Origin: Chthoniobacterales bacterium
GTDB taxonomy: Bacteria > Verrucomicrobiota > Verrucomicrobiia > Chthoniobacterales > UBA10450
Direction of reading: 5' to 3'
Assembly: GCA_013821455.1 (NCBI GenBank)
Contig: JACDGS010000024.1
Location: forward strand, 1 to 59,597
Length of the DNA: 59,597 bases
The position numbers were made by a program, and so were the translations under genes. This document shows positions 14,561 through 35,685 of the stretch, one piece after another; the stretch's first letter is position 1; the number at the start of each line of letters is the position of its first letter. The notes beneath the pieces were generated by a model. It was not told the origin of the DNA, did not search any database, and was given only the letters and a program-made list of their open reading frames with translations.

Positions 14561-14617
14561 CGAATCCGTGGTTTCTGGATTATTGTCAATCGCAGCCGGG
14601 TGCAATGCAGGCCTTCT

Positions 14618-14895: not shown

Positions 14896-16278
14896 CTATG
14901 GGGTTCGCTTCGTCCTCAGGAGGATTACGCGGCGACCGCGGTAGTCTTTAATCCGCAGGATGGATTCTGTGTTCGAGAGCGCTGCCTCATTCTCGGGTTG
15001 AATCAGAATGTAGCGCGCGGCCGCCGGTAAATCAGCCGCTGTTCGCAGATAGACGATTGGCCGTTGCAGGTAAAAGAGGTACGGCTGGTAATCGGGATCA
15101 ATCGCGTAGAGGGACTCGTTAGGCGGAATCGCGGCCTCAAGCTGCGCGGCGATCGGGCGAACTTTTTCGCGCGCGCGGAGCCGGGGGATAATCACGATCG
15201 AATAAATCAGCATCGCGATCGTGACTGCGACAACCGTCCAAGTGATGACTTTGCGCAGAGACTTCGGCCAGACGAGCGCGTGTTCTTTAATGAGGATCGC
15301 GAGCAGCCAGATGGCCGGCGCGAGCAGCGGCATGGTGTAACGCGGCAACGCACCCGGCGCCAGACTCACGACCAGGAACGAAACGGTGATGCCTAACGAC
15401 AAGCCGCGGCAAAGCTTTCGCTCGTTTTCATTCTCCAGGAGACGGAAACGGGCGAACGGCAGCAGCGCCGCCCACGGCAGCAGGTAGCAAATTCCTCGCG
15501 GAAGATTAAGCAGCCAATCGTTGAGATGGAAACCTTCGCCCACGACGCGGCCGGAAAACTGCCGCGACCAAATGCTCGCGACGTGTCCGCCATGCACCAT
15601 CGTTAGGCAAGGGATCGCCCAGGCGGCAAAAATTCCGAGCATGAGCAGAATGCCTAGCCAATGTGGCGCTGTCCGCAGTTGGCGCAGCTCGCCTAACGAA
15701 TAAAGGACTGCGACGACGACGGCGTAGAAGAAGAATAAGTTCAGCGGTCCTTTGGCGAGCAGGCCGAGCCCGAGAAAAACCGACGGGACTAGCCAGGCCT
15801 GCCAGGGCCGCCGAGGCTCGCGCCACCAGCTCAGCCAGCAGATAAAAGCGAGCGCCGTAAGTGAAACGTAGAGCGCTTCGATCTCGATCAGACGGCCTTT
15901 TTCAAGGAGACCAAAGTTCGTCAGCCACATGAGGGCCGCGGCAATTGCGCCGTTCCCGCCGAGGCTCCCGCGCGCGAGCGTGACGAAGGCGAGCGCGACC
16001 GCAAGAACGCAAAGCGCCGATGGTAAACGCGCCGTCCACTCATTACGCGCGCCGAAGATTTTGAAGAAGGCCGCGACGAGCCAATTCACCAACGGCGGTT
16101 TAGAGAAGTATGGTTCGCTGCCGATCTGCGGCACGATGTAGTTGCCCGTTTCGAGCATCGTGACCGCGGGCAGAATGCGGCGGCCCTCTTCGCTTTTGAT
16201 TTCGAGCGAGCCTAACCGCGGCAGGTAAATCGCCGCCCAGACTACCAGCACCAACAATAAAGACCGACCGCGCGCCAT
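14896..16278 (-). CDS. PMT/ArnT-like family 39 glycosyltransferase
   Basis: 460 residues from ATG 16276-16278 (MARGRSLLLVLVVWAAIYLP). The first periplasmic loop has the family signature SEEGRRILPAVTMLETGNYI, then PYFSKPPLVNWLVAAFFKIF, as in ArnT and related PMT_2 enzymes. About ten further hydrophobic helices and a soluble C-terminal tail follow. It would transfer a sugar from a polyprenyl-phosphate carrier to lipid A or a protein outside the inner membrane. The frame extends to 16371 into repeat DNA, so the shorter start is preferred. The long motif form lies in frame at 15691-15708 (reads VLYSLG). Confidence 0.85.
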   Translation of the reverse strand: MARGRSLLLVLVVWAAIYLPRLGSLEIKSEEGRRILPAVTMLETGNYIVPQIGSEPYFSKPPLVNWLVAAFFKIFGARNEWTARLPSALCVLAVALAFVTLARGSLGGNGAIAAALMWLTNFGLLEKGRLIEIEALYVSLTALAFICWLSWWREPRRPWQAWLVPSVFLGLGLLAKGPLNLFFFYAVVVAVLYSLGELRQLRTAPHWLGILLMLGIFAAWAIPCLTMVHGGHVASIWSRQFSGRVVGEGFHLNDWLLNLPRGICYLLPWAALLPFARFRLLENENERKLCRGLSLGITVSFLVVSLAPGALPRYTMPLLAPAIWLLAILIKEHALVWPKSLRKVITWTVVAVTIAMLIYSIVIIPRLRAREKVRPIAAQLEAAIPPNESLYAIDPDYQPYLFYLQRPIVYLRTAADLPAAARYILIQPENEAALSNTESILRIKDYRGRRVILLRTKRTP

Positions 16279-16289
16279 CTGCCGGACGT

Positions 16290-16400
16290 AACACAGCCAT
16301 CCCTGGCTGTCGCGTCGAGGGGGCATCTTGCCCGCAGTTTGATGACGCGCCAAGGCCGGAAGCCTACTCAATCTCGCAGGCTGGAAGCCCGCGTTACGTA
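16290..16400. repeat. small hairpin cluster upstream of the glycosyltransferase
   Basis: Short inverted repeats in a row: ACAGCCATCCCTGGCTGT, a GGGCATCTTGCCC hairpin, then GGCCGGAAGCC and GGCTGGAAGCC blocks. They look like remnants of dispersed hairpin repeats. The divergent promoters of the glycosyltransferase and nusA must lie in or beside this region. Confidence 0.5.
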
Positions 16401-16456
16401 GCTTGACGGCGCGACTCGGTAAAAGTATCGTGCGCGCCTAGTCCGTTGCTGGATTG

Positions 16457-16485
16457 GAGTGGGAGCTGGTGTCCCACTCTTTTTT
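16457..16485 (+). terminator. intrinsic-terminator-like hairpin in the nusA leader (possible attenuator)
   Basis: GAGTGGGA (16457-16464) pairs with TCCCACTC (16472-16479) across a 7-base loop and is followed by six T (16480-16485). It ends only 20 bp before the nusA ATG. The upstream gene is on the other strand, so this cannot terminate a neighbour on the plus strand; it most likely acts on the nusA operon transcript itself. NusA autoregulation by termination is known in Escherichia coli; extending it here is inference. Confidence 0.7.
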
Positions 16486-16505
16486 GTCGCTGGACCTCAC
16501 TTTTC

Positions 16506-17756
16506 ATGAACGCCGAGTTTATCGCCATGCTGGATTACCTGGAACGGGAGCGCGGAATCAAACGCGAAATCCTGATCGAGGCGGTCTCGAACGCCCTCCT
16601 CTCGGCGTCGAAAAAGAGCGTTAGTGCTTCGCGCGATTTGCACATCGAGATCGATCCGAAGACGGGCGAAATCCGTGCGCTCGCAAACTTGCTCGTGGTC
16701 GATCGCGTGACCAATCCCGCGGACGAAATCTCCCTCGATAAAGCGCGCCGCACCAAAGCCGATGCGGCGGTGGGTGAAGAGATGGAGGTGGAAGTGACTC
16801 CGAAAAACTTCGGCCGCATCGCCGCGCAGACGGCGAAGCAGGCCATGATGCAGCGCATCCGCCAGGTCGAGAAGGAAATGATCTACGAGGAGTTCAAGGA
16901 TCGCGCGGGCGAGATTGTCAGCGGAACGGTCCGGCGTTTCGATCGCTCGGACGTCATTCTCGATCTCGGAAAATTTGAGGCGATCATGCCGCAACGCGAG
17001 CGCGTCGTGGTCGAAGATTACAACATCGGCGATCGTCTGCGCGCCTACGTGGTCGCGGTCGAGAATGGCATTCGCGGTCCGGAGATTATCATTTCACGGA
17101 GCCATCCCAATTTCGTTAGGCGACTTTTTGAATTGGAAGTGAGTGAGATTGCCGACGGCACGGTGGAGATCCGCGGCATCGCGCGCGAAGCCGGTTATCG
17201 CACGAAGATCGCCGTTTTTAGCGACAATCCGAAAGTCGATCCGGTTGGTGCTTGCGTCGGTATGCGTGGGTCGCGGGTGAAAAACATCGTTAGGGAATTG
17301 AACAACGAGAAGGTCGATATCATCCGCTGGAGCTCCGACCCGAAGGACTTTGTCCTCGAAGCGCTCAAGCCCGCGAAGGTAAAGAACCTCGTCTTCGACC
17401 TGGAGAAAAAGAGCGCCACCATTTCCGTCGATGAAGACCAACTCTCGCTCGCCATCGGCAAGAAAGGCCAAAACGCGCGCCTAACGAGTCGCCTGACCGG
17501 TTGGGAAATTAACATCGAGAAGGAAGCGCCGAGCACGAGCGCGGTGGAGCAGAAAGTGGCCCACGCGGCGCAGTCGCTCGCCAGCGCGCTGCCGATCACG
17601 GACGAGCAGGCGATGACGCTGGTGAAGACCGGCTTTACGAATCTGGAAGGTTTGCAGGATGCCGAGATGCAGGACCTGATCGACATCCTCAGCGTGGACG
17701 AAGCAAAGGCGCGCGATATTTACGAAGCCGTGCACAAACACGCTGCGGCCACTTGA
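16506..17756 (+). CDS. nusA: transcription termination/antitermination factor NusA
   Basis: 416 residues from ATG 16506 (MNAEFIAMLDYLERERGIKR). NusA N-domain 1-125, S1 domain about 130-200 (GEIVSGTVRRFDRSDVILDL), KH domains about 205-345 (DPVGACVGMRGSRVKNIVRE and LAIGKKGQNARLTSRLTGWE), and a short C-terminal helical repeat (TGFTNLEGLQDAEMQDLIDI). It binds RNA polymerase and controls pausing and termination. First gene of the nusA-infB-rbfA-nrnA-truB-ribF cluster; rimP, usually before nusA, is missing here. Confidence 0.97.
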   Translation: MNAEFIAMLDYLERERGIKREILIEAVSNALLSASKKSVSASRDLHIEIDPKTGEIRALANLLVVDRVTNPADEISLDKARRTKADAAVGEEMEVEVTPKNFGRIAAQTAKQAMMQRIRQVEKEMIYEEFKDRAGEIVSGTVRRFDRSDVILDLGKFEAIMPQRERVVVEDYNIGDRLRAYVVAVENGIRGPEIIISRSHPNFVRRLFELEVSEIADGTVEIRGIAREAGYRTKIAVFSDNPKVDPVGACVGMRGSRVKNIVRELNNEKVDIIRWSSDPKDFVLEALKPAKVKNLVFDLEKKSATISVDEDQLSLAIGKKGQNARLTSRLTGWEINIEKEAPSTSAVEQKVAHAAQSLASALPITDEQAMTLVKTGFTNLEGLQDAEMQDLIDILSVDEAKARDIYEAVHKHAAAT

Positions 17757-17803: not shown

Positions 17804-20218
17804 ATGCCCACAAAAACGACGACCAAAACCACGGCGCGCAAGGCGCCTGCGCGCAAGGCGGCCGCACCGGCCGCCGCTGCGAAGTCGTCGCCTGCCGCGC
17901 GCGCGGCTGCTAAGCCCGCGAAGACGGCCAAAACCTCCAAAAGCAAAACTCAGGAAACTGTGTCTTCCGCTTTGCCAGTCACCGAAACCGCGCCCAAGCC
18001 CGCGCCGGCGGTAGCGACTCCTCCTTCCGCCGCACCGAAAAAGGCCGTGCCTCCTGTGAAACCGATGATGGTTAAATCAGAGGCAGTGAAGCCCGTGGTG
18101 CCGGCGACTCGCTCGGCCTTTGCACCCATCACTGGACGCAAACCCGCGGAGCCTAAGACAACCAGTCAGACCCAACCGCCCGCAGTAGAAAAGCCGGCGA
18201 GCGAAACAAGCGCGAAGCCGATGGCCGAAGCGGTCTCACTCATCGATCCGCGAACTCCGAAGCCGAAGCGGGCCGCGTCCGACACGGCAACGAAGAATTC
18301 GTTTCTCCCACCGATCTCGAAGATTCGCGAGGCGCACGTGGCCGCGCCCGAGCCGGTTGTTCTCGCAACCGCCGAGGCCACCGCGCCTGCGGTCGCCGCC
18401 TCGAGCAGCAACGGGGAAGCTGAAATTGCCGAGGACGGACGGCCGATCATTCACATTAAACCGCCGATCGTCGTCAAAGATCTGGCCACGCAGCTCGGAG
18501 TGAAAAATTTCCAGCTCATCAAAGAGCTGATGGACGACTTCAATATTTTCGCGAACCCCAACCTGACGGTCGAACCCGAGGTCGCGAGCAAAATTTGCGA
18601 TAAGCACGGCTTCGTTTTCGAAATGGAGCGCCGCGAAAAAGGCGGCGGTGTTCATAAGCAGGTCGAGGTCGTCGTCGCGCCTCCGCCTCCGGTCATCGAG
18701 AAAGAGGAAGAGCTGAAGCTGCGCGGCCCGATCATCACTTTTATGGGCCATGTCGATCACGGCAAGACGTCGCTCATGGACGCGATCCGCAAGACGCGCG
18801 TCGCGGCGGGCGAAGCCGGCGGCATTACGCAGCACATCGGCGCCTACACGGTCAATTATAAAGGGACGCGGATCACTTTTCTCGACACGCCAGGTCACGC
18901 GGCTTTCACCGCGATGCGCGCACGCGGCGCAAATGTAACAGACATTGTTGTCCTTGTGGTCGCGGCCGATGACGGCCTCATGCCGCAGACGATCGAAGCG
19001 ATCAACCACGCCAAAGCTGCGCCGCATGTGAAGATCATGGTCGCGGTCAACAAGATGGATTTGCCCGGCGCGAATCTCGATCGGGTGAAACAACAACTCC
19101 AAGAGCGCGATCTCACACCGGAGGATTGGGGTGGCGAAACAATCGTTGTGCCGGTTTCCGCTACGAAAGGCACGGGTGTTGATCAGTTGCTCGAAAACAT
19201 GGCGGTGCAAGCCGAGGTCATGGAGTTAAAAGCTTCGCCCACCGCCACTCCGCGCGGCACCGTGATCGAAGCGCAAGTCGAACCCGGCCGCGGACCGACC
19301 GCGACCGTCATCGTGCAGATGGGCACACTGAAAGTGGGCGAGCCATTTATCTGCGGGGATTACGGCGGCAAGATCAAATCCCTCGTTGATGATCACGGCA
19401 AACCGATCAAGTCCGCCGGTCCCTCGACGCCGACGAAGGTTTTAGGTTTCACTGGTTTGCCTAACGCCGGCGACGAATTCCTCGTCATGGAGTCGGAGAA
19501 ATCCGCCAAGACGCTGAGCGAAGAGCGACTGGCGGCGAAACGCACCGAGAAGTTGAGCATGCCGCAACGCGCCACCCTCGAGAGCCTGCTCGAAGCGGCC
19601 GATGGCAAAAAAGTCCTGCGTTTGATTTTGAAGTGCGATGCGCAGGGTTCGCTCGAAGCGCTCATCGCGTCGTTAGGCCAAATCGAGAGCAAGAAAATCG
19701 ATCTCGAAATGATCCACGCCGGGGTTGGTCCGATTTCCGAGTCGGACATTCTGCTCGCGAGCGCGTCCAACGCCGTCGTCGTCGGCTTCAACATCAAAGT
19801 CGAGAGCAACGCCGTCGCCGCTGCAAAACACGAAGGCGTGCAGGTGAAACTTTACAGCATCATCTACGAACTCATCGACCAGATGAAGGAAGCGATGGCC
19901 GGCATGCTCGATCCGGAGCATCGCGAATCCGTCATCGGTCACGCCGAAGTGAAGCAGGTCTTCCAGTTGAGCCGCGGTATCGTCGCCGGCTGTCTCGTCA
20001 CGGATGGGCGCATCAGCCGCACCGCGCGTGCGCGTGTCTTGCGTCGCCGCCAGCCGGTTTACGATGGCGGCCTCTCGACGTTGCGACGTTTCCAGGACGA
20101 CGTAAAAGAAGTCCGCGTCGGACTGGAGTGCGGCATTAAGCTGGGAGATTTCACCGAGTATCAAGTCGGCGACATCATCGAGTGCTACCAGCTCGAACAG
20201 GTGGCGCAGAAGCTGTAG
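17804..20218 (+). CDS. infB: translation initiation factor IF-2
   Basis: 804 residues. A long Ala/Lys/Pro-rich N-terminal region (1-215) precedes the conserved part. G-domain motifs: GHVDHGKTS (about 315), [29 protein letters not shown], and SATKGTGVD. Domains II, III and IV follow, the last with the RGIVAGC and GLECGIKL blocks. It is the GTPase that places initiator tRNA on the 30S subunit. It begins 47 bp after nusA; the start is [10 protein letters not shown] at 17804. One CCTAACGA word (minus orientation) lies in domain III. Confidence 0.97.
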
Positions 20219-20269
20219 GGCACGCTTCCAGCTTGCCTAACGACGCTGGTGCGAGCGCCGTCCATTTCT

Positions 20270-20626
20270 ATGAAACATCGATTGCTCCGTGTGAACGAAT
20301 TACTGAAGCGAGAGCTGAGCGCTCTTCTAGTGCGCGAAATGTCGTTCGAAAACCTGCTCGTCACCGTGAATCAGGTGGACGTCACGCCCGATCTGAAATC
20401 GGCCCACGTTTACATCAGCGTCCTCGGCTCGCTGGGGCGCAAAGAAGTCCTCCCGAAGCTGGAAGCGAATCGCGCCGCCTTGCAGTCTGCGCTGTCGAAA
20501 CACGTCGTCCTCAAATACACGCCGCACCTCGTTTTCCATCTCGATGATTCGATCGAGCGCGGCTCGCGCGTCCTCAAGATTTTGCAGGAAATAGAACCTT
20601 CTCCCGTCACCGAGCCTAACGAATGA
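20270..20626 (+). CDS. rbfA: ribosome-binding factor A
   Basis: 118 residues from ATG 20270 (MKHRLLRVNELLKRELSALL). Family features: the KH-like core with VTVNQVDVTPDLKSAHVYIS and the C-terminal TPHLVFHLDDSIERGSRV. It helps mature the 30S subunit. Its last codons are CCT AAC GAA TGA, so the window-wide motif encodes PNE at the C-terminus, and the TGA overlaps the ATG of the next gene by 4 bp (translational coupling). Confidence 0.95.
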   Translation: MKHRLLRVNELLKRELSALLVREMSFENLLVTVNQVDVTPDLKSAHVYISVLGSLGRKEVLPKLEANRAALQSALSKHVVLKYTPHLVFHLDDSIERGSRVLKILQEIEPSPVTEPNE

Positions 20627-33153: not shown

Positions 33154-33204
33154 ATAAATCTTGAGCGGGGAAGCGCAAGCGGCTACTTCTGCGCCAGTTC
33201 TTTG

Positions 33205-33396
33205 CGAGTTTGATCAGTGGAACGGCGCGAGAAATCCCGTTGGAATCGGGAGCAGTTGCGCTGCTGTAACTGGATACGACTTCCCTTGAGCCAATCGTTA
33301 GGCAACGGTGCGAACCGAGCCGGCGGTGAAGGCGGGAAGAAGGTGTGCGTCGGGTCGTTAGGCAAGACGCCGCAAGCCAGGAGCCAGAATATTTGC
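33205..33396 (+). promoter_or_regulatory. cobalamin (adenosylcobalamin-type) riboswitch
   Basis: The core can be read in order: GAGAAATCCCGTTGGAATCG (33229-33248), GGGAGCAGTTGCGCTGCTGT (to about 33267), GAGCCA near 33288-33293, GGCGGGAAGAAGGTG near 33331-33345, and the B12 box AGCCAGGAGCCAG at 33375-33387. These match the conserved segments GGAA.cCGGT.gAA.tC, GC.G..GCGC..CTGTAA, GCCA, GGGAAGG and AGCCAGGAGAC of cobalamin riboswitches. It precedes a BtuB-like receptor, the classical target. Two copies of TCGTTAGGC (33295, 33355) sit in variable peripheral regions. Confidence 0.88.
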
Positions 33397-33495
33397 CCGC
33401 TCCACTCTCATTCGTGCCGCCGCGTGTGCGGGCCGGCGCGACAAAACTTCTTCGCAGAAAAGAAGAGTGAGAGTCGTGGAGGAAGCGCCGGCAGG

Positions 33496-33534: not shown

Positions 33535-35685
33535 ATGTTTGGATTTGGAAATTGGGTGGCGTGTACGCAGGAGCGCACCTCGCTGTTATTGGAGAACTCG
33601 TTAGGCGCTCGCGGTTCGAGCGGGAATCCGGGGAGCGCACGCGCCTCGCGTGCTGGCGATGGCGCCTCGCCATCGCGAACTTTCGGCATCGTTCGAGTTT
33701 CGGAGGCGCGTCAGTGTTGTGATCGGTGCGTTTTGGACTCACGCTTTGCGGCGAGGCGCCGCAAAGAGCACGCGAGGCGCGTGCGCTCCCCGGAGCTGTT
33801 CGCTGCGCTCCTCTTGGCAATCGGAGCGTCGTTAGGCAACGTGAACGCGCAGGACGCGATCAGTAGTCCGACGCCCGCGCCGGTCGCTGATGAGATCGTA
33901 GTCAGCGCGACGCGTGTTCCTACGCCGCAGGAGGAAACGGGCGCGAGCATCAGCGTGATTACGTCCGACGACCTCGCCGGCAAACAAACCGAGCGCGTCT
34001 CCGATGCGCTGCGCGAAATTCCTGGACTTTCCGTGGTGCAAAGCGGCACTCAGGGCCAACTCACTTCGGTCTTCACGCGAGGATTAAAGAGCGAGCACAC
34101 GCAAGTTTTGATCGATGGAATTCCGATCAACCAGGGACTGGCGGGACTGTTCAACTTTGCCGATCTCACGGTGGACGACATCGATCACATCGAGGTCGTG
34201 CGCGGACCGCAGAGCACGCTTTACGGTCCGCGTGGACTTGCGGGCGTGATCCAAATTTTCACTAAACAGGGAAGCGGTCCGCCGAGCGGCTCAGTCAGTG
34301 CCGAGGGTGGTTCCTACGATACCTTCCGCGAAACTTTTCAAACCTCCGGGAGCTGGCAGCAATTCGACTACTCGTTAGGCGCGAGTCGGCTCGATACGGA
34401 TAACGCCCGGCCTAACAATGAGTATCGCAACACCTCCGCGGTCGCGAATCTGGGCTGGTCGCCTAACGAACAATTCCGCCTGAGCGGCCTCTTCACTTAT
34501 TCCAACTCTGACGCGAGCAGCCCCAACATTATCTCTGATCCCAAGCCGCTCGATAACCTCCTCACCGAGCGCTGGCTGATCGCTCCGCATCTCGATTACA
34601 AGCCGTTCGATTGGTGGGAGCACAAACTGATCGTGAGCTACGATCACGAGCGGCAGGTGAACGATCCGAACGAAGATGGATTTCTTCCCGGGACGACATT
34701 TGTCGGTGCGACGCGCGCGCTTTTCGAGCGTTTCACGGTTGATTACCAAAACGATCTCCGGCCCACGAACTGGCTCACCCTAACGAGTGGGTTTTTCTAC
34801 AGCGACGTCGATGCCGGACAGGAACGGCCCTTCGTCTCGCAGGCGTTTGGACCGCTGCCGACTTTCATCAGCGATCACACCGCTGAAGTTGCCGGCTTCG
34901 TGCAAGCCAGCGCGAAACCGTTTGAGGGACTGAATCTGGTCGCGGGCGGGCGCGACGACCATTTCAACCAATTTGGCGATGTCTGGACTTATCGGGTCGC
35001 AGGCAGTTATCGAATCAAACCAACTGACACGGTTTTGCATTCCAGCTACGCCACGGGTTTCAGTCCACCCACGAGTCAGGACAAAATCTTCGGCAACAAC
35101 TTCAATCTCGATCCCGAAAGAGTGCGCGGCTTCGACGTCGGCGTGACCCAGAATCTGTGGAACTCGCGCGTTGTTCTCGACGCGACCTATTTTCACAACA
35201 GGCTCTCCAACGTCATCGGTTACAACGGCGCTTTCGATCTCGTGAATCTCGGCGCGGCGCGGACGCAGGGCTTGGAATTTGAAGCGCACGCCCGCCCGCT
35301 CGAGGACCTCACCCTGACGGCGAGCTACAGTTATCTTGAGGCCGAGAAAACCTCCGCGACCGACATTTCGCAGCCGCCGGGCTCGCGCTTGCCCCGGCGT
35401 CCGCGGAACGAGGTTTATGTTTCCGCTTCGTATCTCTGGTGCAAAAAATTGCGCACAACGGCGGAAGCGAAATGGGTCAATGCGCGTGAGGAAATTAACT
35501 TCGGCTTCCCAAATTTCGACATCGAGGATTACTCGTTCGCGAACTTCGCCGCGGAATATCAGGTGAATTCTTGCCTAACGATCTTCGGCCGGATTGATAA
35601 CCTAACGAACGAGCATTACTCCGAAGTCTTCGGCTTCCCGGCGCTGGGACGGGCGGCCTATGGCGGAGTCCGGGTGTCGTTCTGA
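33535..35685 (+). CDS. BtuB-like TonB-dependent receptor with repeat-derived N-terminus
   Basis: 716 residues from ATG 33535, which has a good GGAGG. The receptor itself starts late: a signal-like LFAALLLAIGASLGNVNAQ (residues about 86-104), then the plug (DEIVVSATRVPTPQEETGAS, DALREIPGLSVVQSG, VEVVRGPQSTLYGPRGLAGV-like VVRGPQSTLYGPRG) and a 22-strand barrel ending in FPALGRAAYGGVRVSF. Residues 1-82 are encoded by a palindromic repeat (33617-33791). A GTG at 33781 (VRSPELFAAL) is an alternative start and would give a normal signal peptide. The receptor imports cobalamin across the outer membrane, in line with its riboswitch. Confidence 0.85.
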   Translation: MFGFGNWVACTQERTSLLLENSLGARGSSGNPGSARASRAGDGASPSRTFGIVRVSEARQCCDRCVLDSRFAARRRKEHARRVRSPELFAALLLAIGASLGNVNAQDAISSPTPAPVADEIVVSATRVPTPQEETGASISVITSDDLAGKQTERVSDALREIPGLSVVQSGTQGQLTSVFTRGLKSEHTQVLIDGIPINQGLAGLFNFADLTVDDIDHIEVVRGPQSTLYGPRGLAGVIQIFTKQGSGPPSGSVSAEGGSYDTFRETFQTSGSWQQFDYSLGASRLDTDNARPNNEYRNTSAVANLGWSPNEQFRLSGLFTYSNSDASSPNIISDPKPLDNLLTERWLIAPHLDYKPFDWWEHKLIVSYDHERQVNDPNEDGFLPGTTFVGATRALFERFTVDYQNDLRPTNWLTLTSGFFYSDVDAGQERPFVSQAFGPLPTFISDHTAEVAGFVQASAKPFEGLNLVAGGRDDHFNQFGDVWTYRVAGSYRIKPTDTVLHSSYATGFSPPTSQDKIFGNNFNLDPERVRGFDVGVTQNLWNSRVVLDATYFHNRLSNVIGYNGAFDLVNLGAARTQGLEFEAHARPLEDLTLTASYSYLEAEKTSATDISQPPGSRLPRRPRNEVYVSASYLWCKKLRTTAEAKWVNAREEINFGFPNFDIEDYSFANFAAEYQVNSCLTIFGRIDNLTNEHYSEVFGFPALGRAAYGGVRVSF
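33617..33791. repeat. hairpin element in the 5' coding region of the BtuB-like gene
   Basis: Left GGGGAGCGCACGCGCCTCGC and right (reverse complement) GGGGAGCGCACGCGCCTCGC match as inverted ends; further inside GATGGCGCCTCGCCATCGCG and GCTTTGCGGCGAGGCGCCGC form smaller hairpins. It reads in frame as SARASRAGDGAS and RRKEHARRVRSP. It has no counterpart in TonB receptors. Confidence 0.8.

Follow-up and report, generated by a model that had tools for sequence, protein, structure and literature searches.

The nusA-infB locus and its leader

The DNA analysed here (59,597 nucleotides, referred to below as the window) comes from a 4.3-Mb draft genome of a Chthoniobacterales bacterium, the NusA of which is 84–87% identical in named relatives (Spartobacteria, Chthoniobacterales and unclassified Verrucomicrobia metagenome assemblies). 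On the plus strand lie nusA (16506–17756; Pfam NusA_N and KH_5), infB encoding IF-2 (17804–20218; Pfam IF-2, IF2_N and GTP_EFTU) and rbfA (20249–20626; Pfam RBFA), followed by genes for a DHH phosphoesterase, TruB and RibF, all with Pfam support. From gene order and strand, we infer that nusA-infB-rbfA-DHH phosphoesterase-truB-ribF form one transcript with nusA as the first gene. The divergent gene upstream, on the minus strand, encodes a PMT-type glycosyltransferase (14896–16371; Pfam PMT_2 and PMT).

The region between these divergent genes contains a predicted σ70-type promoter on the plus strand (16403–16431; TTGACG, 17-nt spacer, TATCGT), from which transcription would start at about 16438–16440, and a terminator hairpin on the same strand (16457–16479). 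The hairpin is built of the 5′ arm GAGTGGGA (16457–16464), the 7-nt loop GCTGGTG (16465–16471) and the 3′ arm TCCCACTC (16472–16479), giving eight Watson-Crick pairs, five of them G-C, with a possible ninth pair G-T (16456/16480); the folding energy of the hairpin with its flanking bases is −14.6 kcal/mol. It is followed by a T6 tract (16480–16485), at which a leader RNA terminated after about 47 nt is predicted to have its 3′ end, and no T run follows the hairpin on the opposite strand. The G+C-rich stem (8 bp, 5 G-C pairs) and the T6 immediately after it on the coding strand are the sequence features by which intrinsic terminators are recognized. The end of the T tract is 20 nt and the end of the stem 26 nt away from the nusA ATG, and the predicted leader is about 67 nt long in total. 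Since the σ70-like promoter precedes the hairpin, the latter is inside the predicted transcript.

Direct reading of the sequence confirmed the coordinates of the initial annotation, which had described an 8-bp GC-rich stem with six T ending 20 bp before the nusA ATG and an upstream gene on the other strand. Its placement of the hairpin in the leader of the nusA-infB operon, which a transcription start downstream of the hairpin would contradict, also held at the level of sequence: the predicted promoter is upstream of the hairpin and the nusA ATG downstream, not only in the window but throughout the family. We found nusA in 111 of 117 relatives, and 66 family genomes had enough upstream sequence to be used as the leader set (G024 and G060, whose contigs end at most 30 nt from nusA, were left out of these counts). 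In all 66, TTGAC and TAnnnT separated by 16–17 nt are present within −130 to −60, ahead of the hairpin, at a promoter-to-ATG distance of 100–108 nt (126 nt in G019), whereas none of the 1210 control windows (70 nt each) taken further upstream contained this pattern. The arrangement of a leader attenuator, with the promoter before the terminator and the gene start after it, is thus predicted from sequence in 66 of 66 family genomes.

An intergenic hairpin could alternatively insulate nusA against read-through from upstream or terminate the upstream gene. However, the glycosyltransferase gene points the other way in the window, a homologue has the same place and strand at nusA in 58 of 62 family genomes (a count that leaves out G060), and the hairpin is kept in G003 and G004, two members of the window's genus where this homologue was not found. 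Moreover, an insulator would block nusA itself, because the predicted nusA promoter is upstream of the hairpin in all 66 genomes. We regard this explanation as hardly conceivable.

The scan for terminator-like sites with a loose definition was uninformative by itself, because it returned 18 sites in 10 kb compared to 14.0 ± 4.7 in shuffled sequences. With a strict definition (eight perfect pairs, a loop of 3–8 and five T), three sites were found on both strands of the 59.6-kb window versus a mean of 0.23 in 60 shuffles (highest shuffle: 7); the other two face each other near 44.6–44.8 kb. We also considered that the hairpin could be a copy of a repeat dispersed over the genome. This was rejected: the hairpin is single-copy, and its core occurs once in the genome when up to three mismatches are allowed (three times for a reversed control pattern). 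The decisive argument against chance is the conservation of the hairpin.

The genome does contain an abundant repeat of its own. The 8-mer GCCTAACG is present in 100 copies in the window (53 on the plus and 47 on the minus strand; for example, at 15117, 15391, 15601, 15691, 17114 and 17479), with A as the next base in 89 of them, and CCTAACG occurs 118 times versus 4.8 expected. Exact copies of GCCTAACGA number 2306 + 2299 in the genome (4605 in total, about one per 930 bp) versus 33 + 29 for the reversed control, and they are located on both strands, within genes too. There are 1410–2754 copies in four genus mates, 2147 in G005 and 1802 in G014. The remaining family members that were searched contain between 19 and about 590, and the other families of the order at most 30. 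The repeat looks like a DNA-uptake-type sequence, for which our literature search showed no case in Verrucomicrobiota. Neisseriaceae and Pasteurellaceae are known to have such sequences. In addition, long imperfect palindromes that resemble one another (GGGGAGnACGGGCTGnTAGCCCGT...) form inverted pairs at 14617–14672/14825–14880 and 44573–44620/44769–44810, perhaps representing a dispersed palindromic repeat family. Elsewhere in the window, a cobalamin riboswitch (33189–33414; 35.9 bits) is situated about 120 nt before an ORF of 716 amino acids (33535–35685).

Conservation of the leader in the family and the phylum

The initial annotation had proposed conservation in close relatives as a check on the hairpin. 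Indeed, all five genomes of the genus possess exactly one copy of the hairpin core (at most two mismatches), 27–31 nt before nusA, and conservation extends across the phylum (see below). Hairpin, promoter and spacing are common to all 66 family genomes. The stem is identical to that of the window in 58 of 65 relatives, and its mean identity to the window is 99.2%, compared to 80% for the loop and 52.9% for fourfold-degenerate nusA sites; the difference between stem and fourfold sites suggests that the stem is under selection on its sequence. The T run comprises four to six T in the family and is followed, directly or one base later, by GTC in every one of the 66 genomes.

We built a covariance model (R1) from the 66 leaders and ran it over 117 genomes. 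In 67 of the 73 genomes of the family, the model gave a single strong match in sense orientation (56–98 bits), and every one of these was located at nusA. Among the six genomes lacking it, four (G035, G041, G042 and G050) had no nusA match, G049 had a weak match unlike nusA, and in G060 the contig ends 29 nt upstream. Leaving aside antisense hits at this position and the leaders of related families, matches elsewhere scored at most 21.9 bits in a search that scored 40 candidates per genome and may miss weak matches. By these searches, the leader element is single-copy and nusA-specific.

The invariant GTC (16486–16488 in the window) belongs to a stretch (16486–16496, plus strand) that also includes the 3′ strand (16491–16495) of an outer helix, the 5′ strand of which (16440–16446, plus strand; AGUCCGC in most of the family) is at the 5′ end of the leader. 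The two strands read AGUCCGC/GCGGGCU in most genera and AGACCGC/GCGGUCU in the genus g4, whereas in the window the pairing is limited to GUCCG/UGGAC and is no better than in shuffles (z = +0.63). In the family alignment, 96.9% of outer-helix cells are paired and three of seven pairs have changes on both sides. A single lineage contributes most of these double changes, and the same structure had been used to fit the alignment. The whole leader structure beats all 500 shuffles. With one genome per genus, the mean z of the outer helix was −1.97, with seven of 14 genera below −2. We rejected the outer helix as a phylum-wide feature, since z was below −2 in 14 of 88 cases and no general signal was seen outside the family. 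It is therefore best described, as far as the alignments indicate, as an addition at the family level that is reduced in the genus of the window.

For the wider distribution, we compiled 176 distinct nusA loci, 108 from relatives and 68 from named records, after 12 of 80 named loci had been removed as duplicates of genomes already included. A hairpin with a T run was found within 100 nt upstream of nusA on the coding strand in 146 loci and on the other strand in eight; the remaining 100-nt bins out to 1500 nt contained such sites in at most five loci on the coding strand and at most eight on the other. The stem cores of the 146 loci were GUGGG/CCCAC (91), GUGGG/CCCGC (16), GUCGG/CCGAC (15), GUCGG/CCGGC (10), GCGGG/CCCGC (5) and others (9). 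This includes compensatory exchanges in which both sides have changed (U-A to C-G and G-C to C-G), with G-U intermediates present.

We then sampled the phylum Verrucomicrobiota evenly: a nusA match was obtained in 187 genomes at least 90% complete, of which 90 were used, mostly one per genus (30 + 60 loci, taken among the matches listed). Among these listed matches, 76 of the 90 genomes have a terminator no more than 130 nt upstream of nusA, and 37 of 43 families have it at least once; a stricter core pattern, applied to the same 90 listed genomes, gave a GUGGG or GCGGG core in 63 and none in 27. Within the same order and outside the family, the scan detected no terminator in 24 of 42 genomes, including all those of f2, f5, f9, f11 and f13, showing that the device is replaceable, a point against the mechanism proposed below. 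In f4 and f5 (L075, L076, L077, L079, L080, L083 and L109), where the terminator is mostly absent, the leader contains a hairpin (e.g., GACCGA..UCGGUC) ending about 10–15 nt before the nusA ATG, and attenuation is perhaps replaced by translational control in these two families.

To summarize, the part of the initial annotation that placed a terminator in the nusA operon leader is well supported by the predicted promoter and the conservation. The annotation had further suggested that too much NusA would shut off its own operon; taken as a whole, its interpretation is partly supported.

Proposed control of the leader terminator

NusA stimulates hairpin termination. In the mechanism that we propose, transcription would begin at the σ70-type promoter at about position 16439, and the polymerase would encounter the hairpin and T run within about 47 nt. 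A fraction of the polymerases would stop in the T run and release the leader RNA of about 47 nt, and the remaining ones would read through into nusA-infB-rbfA. A surplus of NusA would increase the stopped fraction and a shortage would decrease it, and in this way NusA would set the amounts of both NusA and IF-2. We consider such partial leader termination with NusA feedback on the nusA-infB operon to be probable. The promoter pattern, the hairpin, the T run, their position, the conservation, the nusA specificity and the undetected antiterminator and RimP are what the genome comparisons establish. That the hairpin terminates transcription in the cell, that it does so partially, and that NusA is the tuning factor are steps that we infer. 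NusA would be the best candidate for a tuner, because it is the first product of the operon, stimulates hairpin termination and has precedents, described for Bacillus subtilis and proposed for Streptococcus agalactiae and the rimP-leader (see below). A short T run of four to six T would also fit a conditional terminator.

The complementarity of the 5′ leader to the two stem arms did not exceed that in shuffles (mean z of −0.65 and +0.78; 14 genera), and no antiterminator was detected in this way. Therefore, a terminator tuned by a protein is likelier than one switched by RNA. The outer helix is no antiterminator, because both it and the terminator hairpin can form in the same RNA. A riboswitch or a known Rfam leader was rejected as well, since Rfam gave no match at the leader at the gathering threshold and only chance-level matches in a permissive scan.

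A terminator without any feedback, cutting the expression of the operon by a constant fraction, would agree with the strength of the hairpin and with the fact that no second regulatory structure was found in the leader; a stem of 8–9 bp at −14.6 kcal/mol may terminate without NusA. Nevertheless, a weaker promoter could do the same, yet the stem is nearly invariant, and the terminator recurs at nusA in most families of the phylum sample, among the matches listed. Furthermore, the cases published for the nusA operon are described as regulated. A constant brake is thus unlikely.

The attenuator might instead respond to another input, such as NusG, Rho, a cold-shock protein, ribosome loading, or a binder of the stem, loop, GTC or outer helix. 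A plain terminator does not account for the invariant GTC and the family-level outer helix, and cold stress changes the transcription of the equivalent operon in Escherichia coli (PMC6511841). Against this stand the weakness of the outer helix in the window and its restriction to the family, as well as the missing Rfam match; we judge a different input to be improbable.

Finally, the hairpin could act on mRNA stability or translation and be non-functional as a terminator. In favour of this are its short distance from the start codon, the outer helix, which for most family members stops about 10 nt ahead of the ATG, and the leader hairpins of f4 and f5, which are not accompanied by the terminator. 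However, such an element needs no T run, which is present directly after the stem in all 66 family leaders and in 76 of the 90 phylum genomes, among the matches listed. This makes a pure stability or translation element very improbable, and termination in the leader with feedback by NusA is the reading that we prefer.

Relation to known leaders of nusA operons

Regulation of this type has been described in other bacteria. In B. subtilis, NusA autoregulates its synthesis via NusA-stimulated termination in its own 5′ leader, as reported in a review (PMC12288461). For the rimP-nusA operon of S. agalactiae, termination 31 nt after the start is reported and NusA feedback proposed (PMC4448216). The rimP-leader (Naville and Gautheret 2010, PMC2965389; RF01770) occurs in many bacteria, and NusA is proposed as its regulator, with RimP as the other candidate.

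The leader studied here shares with the rimP-leader the intrinsic terminator in front of an operon with nusA and infB, the G-rich 5′ arm and C-rich 3′ arm, the proximity to the first start codon and the lack of a visible antiterminator. In contrast to the rimP-leader, the first gene here is nusA, and the stem is AGUGGGA..UCCCACU and not GGGc..gCCC; where the motif has GGGc(...)gCCC, the window has GGGA(...)UCCC, although GGGCC(...)GGCCC stems are present in some members of the family f17. The Rfam model RF01770 did not match the one genome searched, that of the window, and matched one of 14 controls (E. coli). Of the rimP-nusA-infB operon context of RF01770, nusA-infB is present here and rimP was undetected. 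A profile search for RimP (Pfam RimP_N, PF02576), which could miss a very divergent RimP, was negative in all 193 phylum genomes (at least 90% complete) and all 39 relatives, and positive in 10 of 14 controls. Since RimP was undetected in 193 of 193 genomes, rimP is unlikely to be the client of the leader terminator. By analogy, the leader would work like the rimP-leader, with strict membership in RF01770 failing on the stem motif and the model.

The B. subtilis leader is likewise a terminator in front of an operon encoding NusA; the NusA dependence is reported there, whereas we deduce it here, in another phylum and without rimP. In the E. coli metY-rimP-nusA-infB operon, the hairpin GGGCT-TTA-GGCCC with seven T precedes the rimP start by 24 nt, similar to the 26 nt between stem end and ATG in the window. 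The two leaders share this layout and differ in stem sequence, and no rimP was detected in the operon studied here. Unlike the leader described here, the E. coli one combines tandem terminators t1 and t2 with an upstream tRNA gene and RNase III sites (PMC6511841). A tRNA-like gene, recognized by eye, is located directly upstream of the nusA promoter in the family f12 (L105, L108 and L110; genomes G096, G104 and G111), a layout that recalls E. coli metY-rimP-nusA.

Our literature search, with subscription papers mostly outside its reach, found no report of a nusA leader terminator in Verrucomicrobiota. Feedback at the nusA leader is a known type of regulation, and in Verrucomicrobiota it seems to be undescribed. 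With the leader described here, attenuation in front of nusA would extend to an entire phylum without detectable RimP. The presence of the element without RimP bears on a question that the 2010 rimP-leader paper did not settle, namely which of the two proteins, RimP or NusA, acts as the regulator. In addition, the leader is a small, well-defined RNA of about 67 nt that is suited to direct testing of NusA feedback outside model bacteria. A more speculative idea, which we consider doubtful but worth stating, is that the AGUGGG..CCCACU hairpin and the GUC after it are recognized by their sequence, either by NusA or by polymerase with NusA bound to it, making the leader a dedicated NusA-sensor RNA of Verrucomicrobiota that hardly varies within the family. 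If true, such a sensor would couple transcription-termination capacity to the supply of IF-2 in a phylum apparently lacking RimP.
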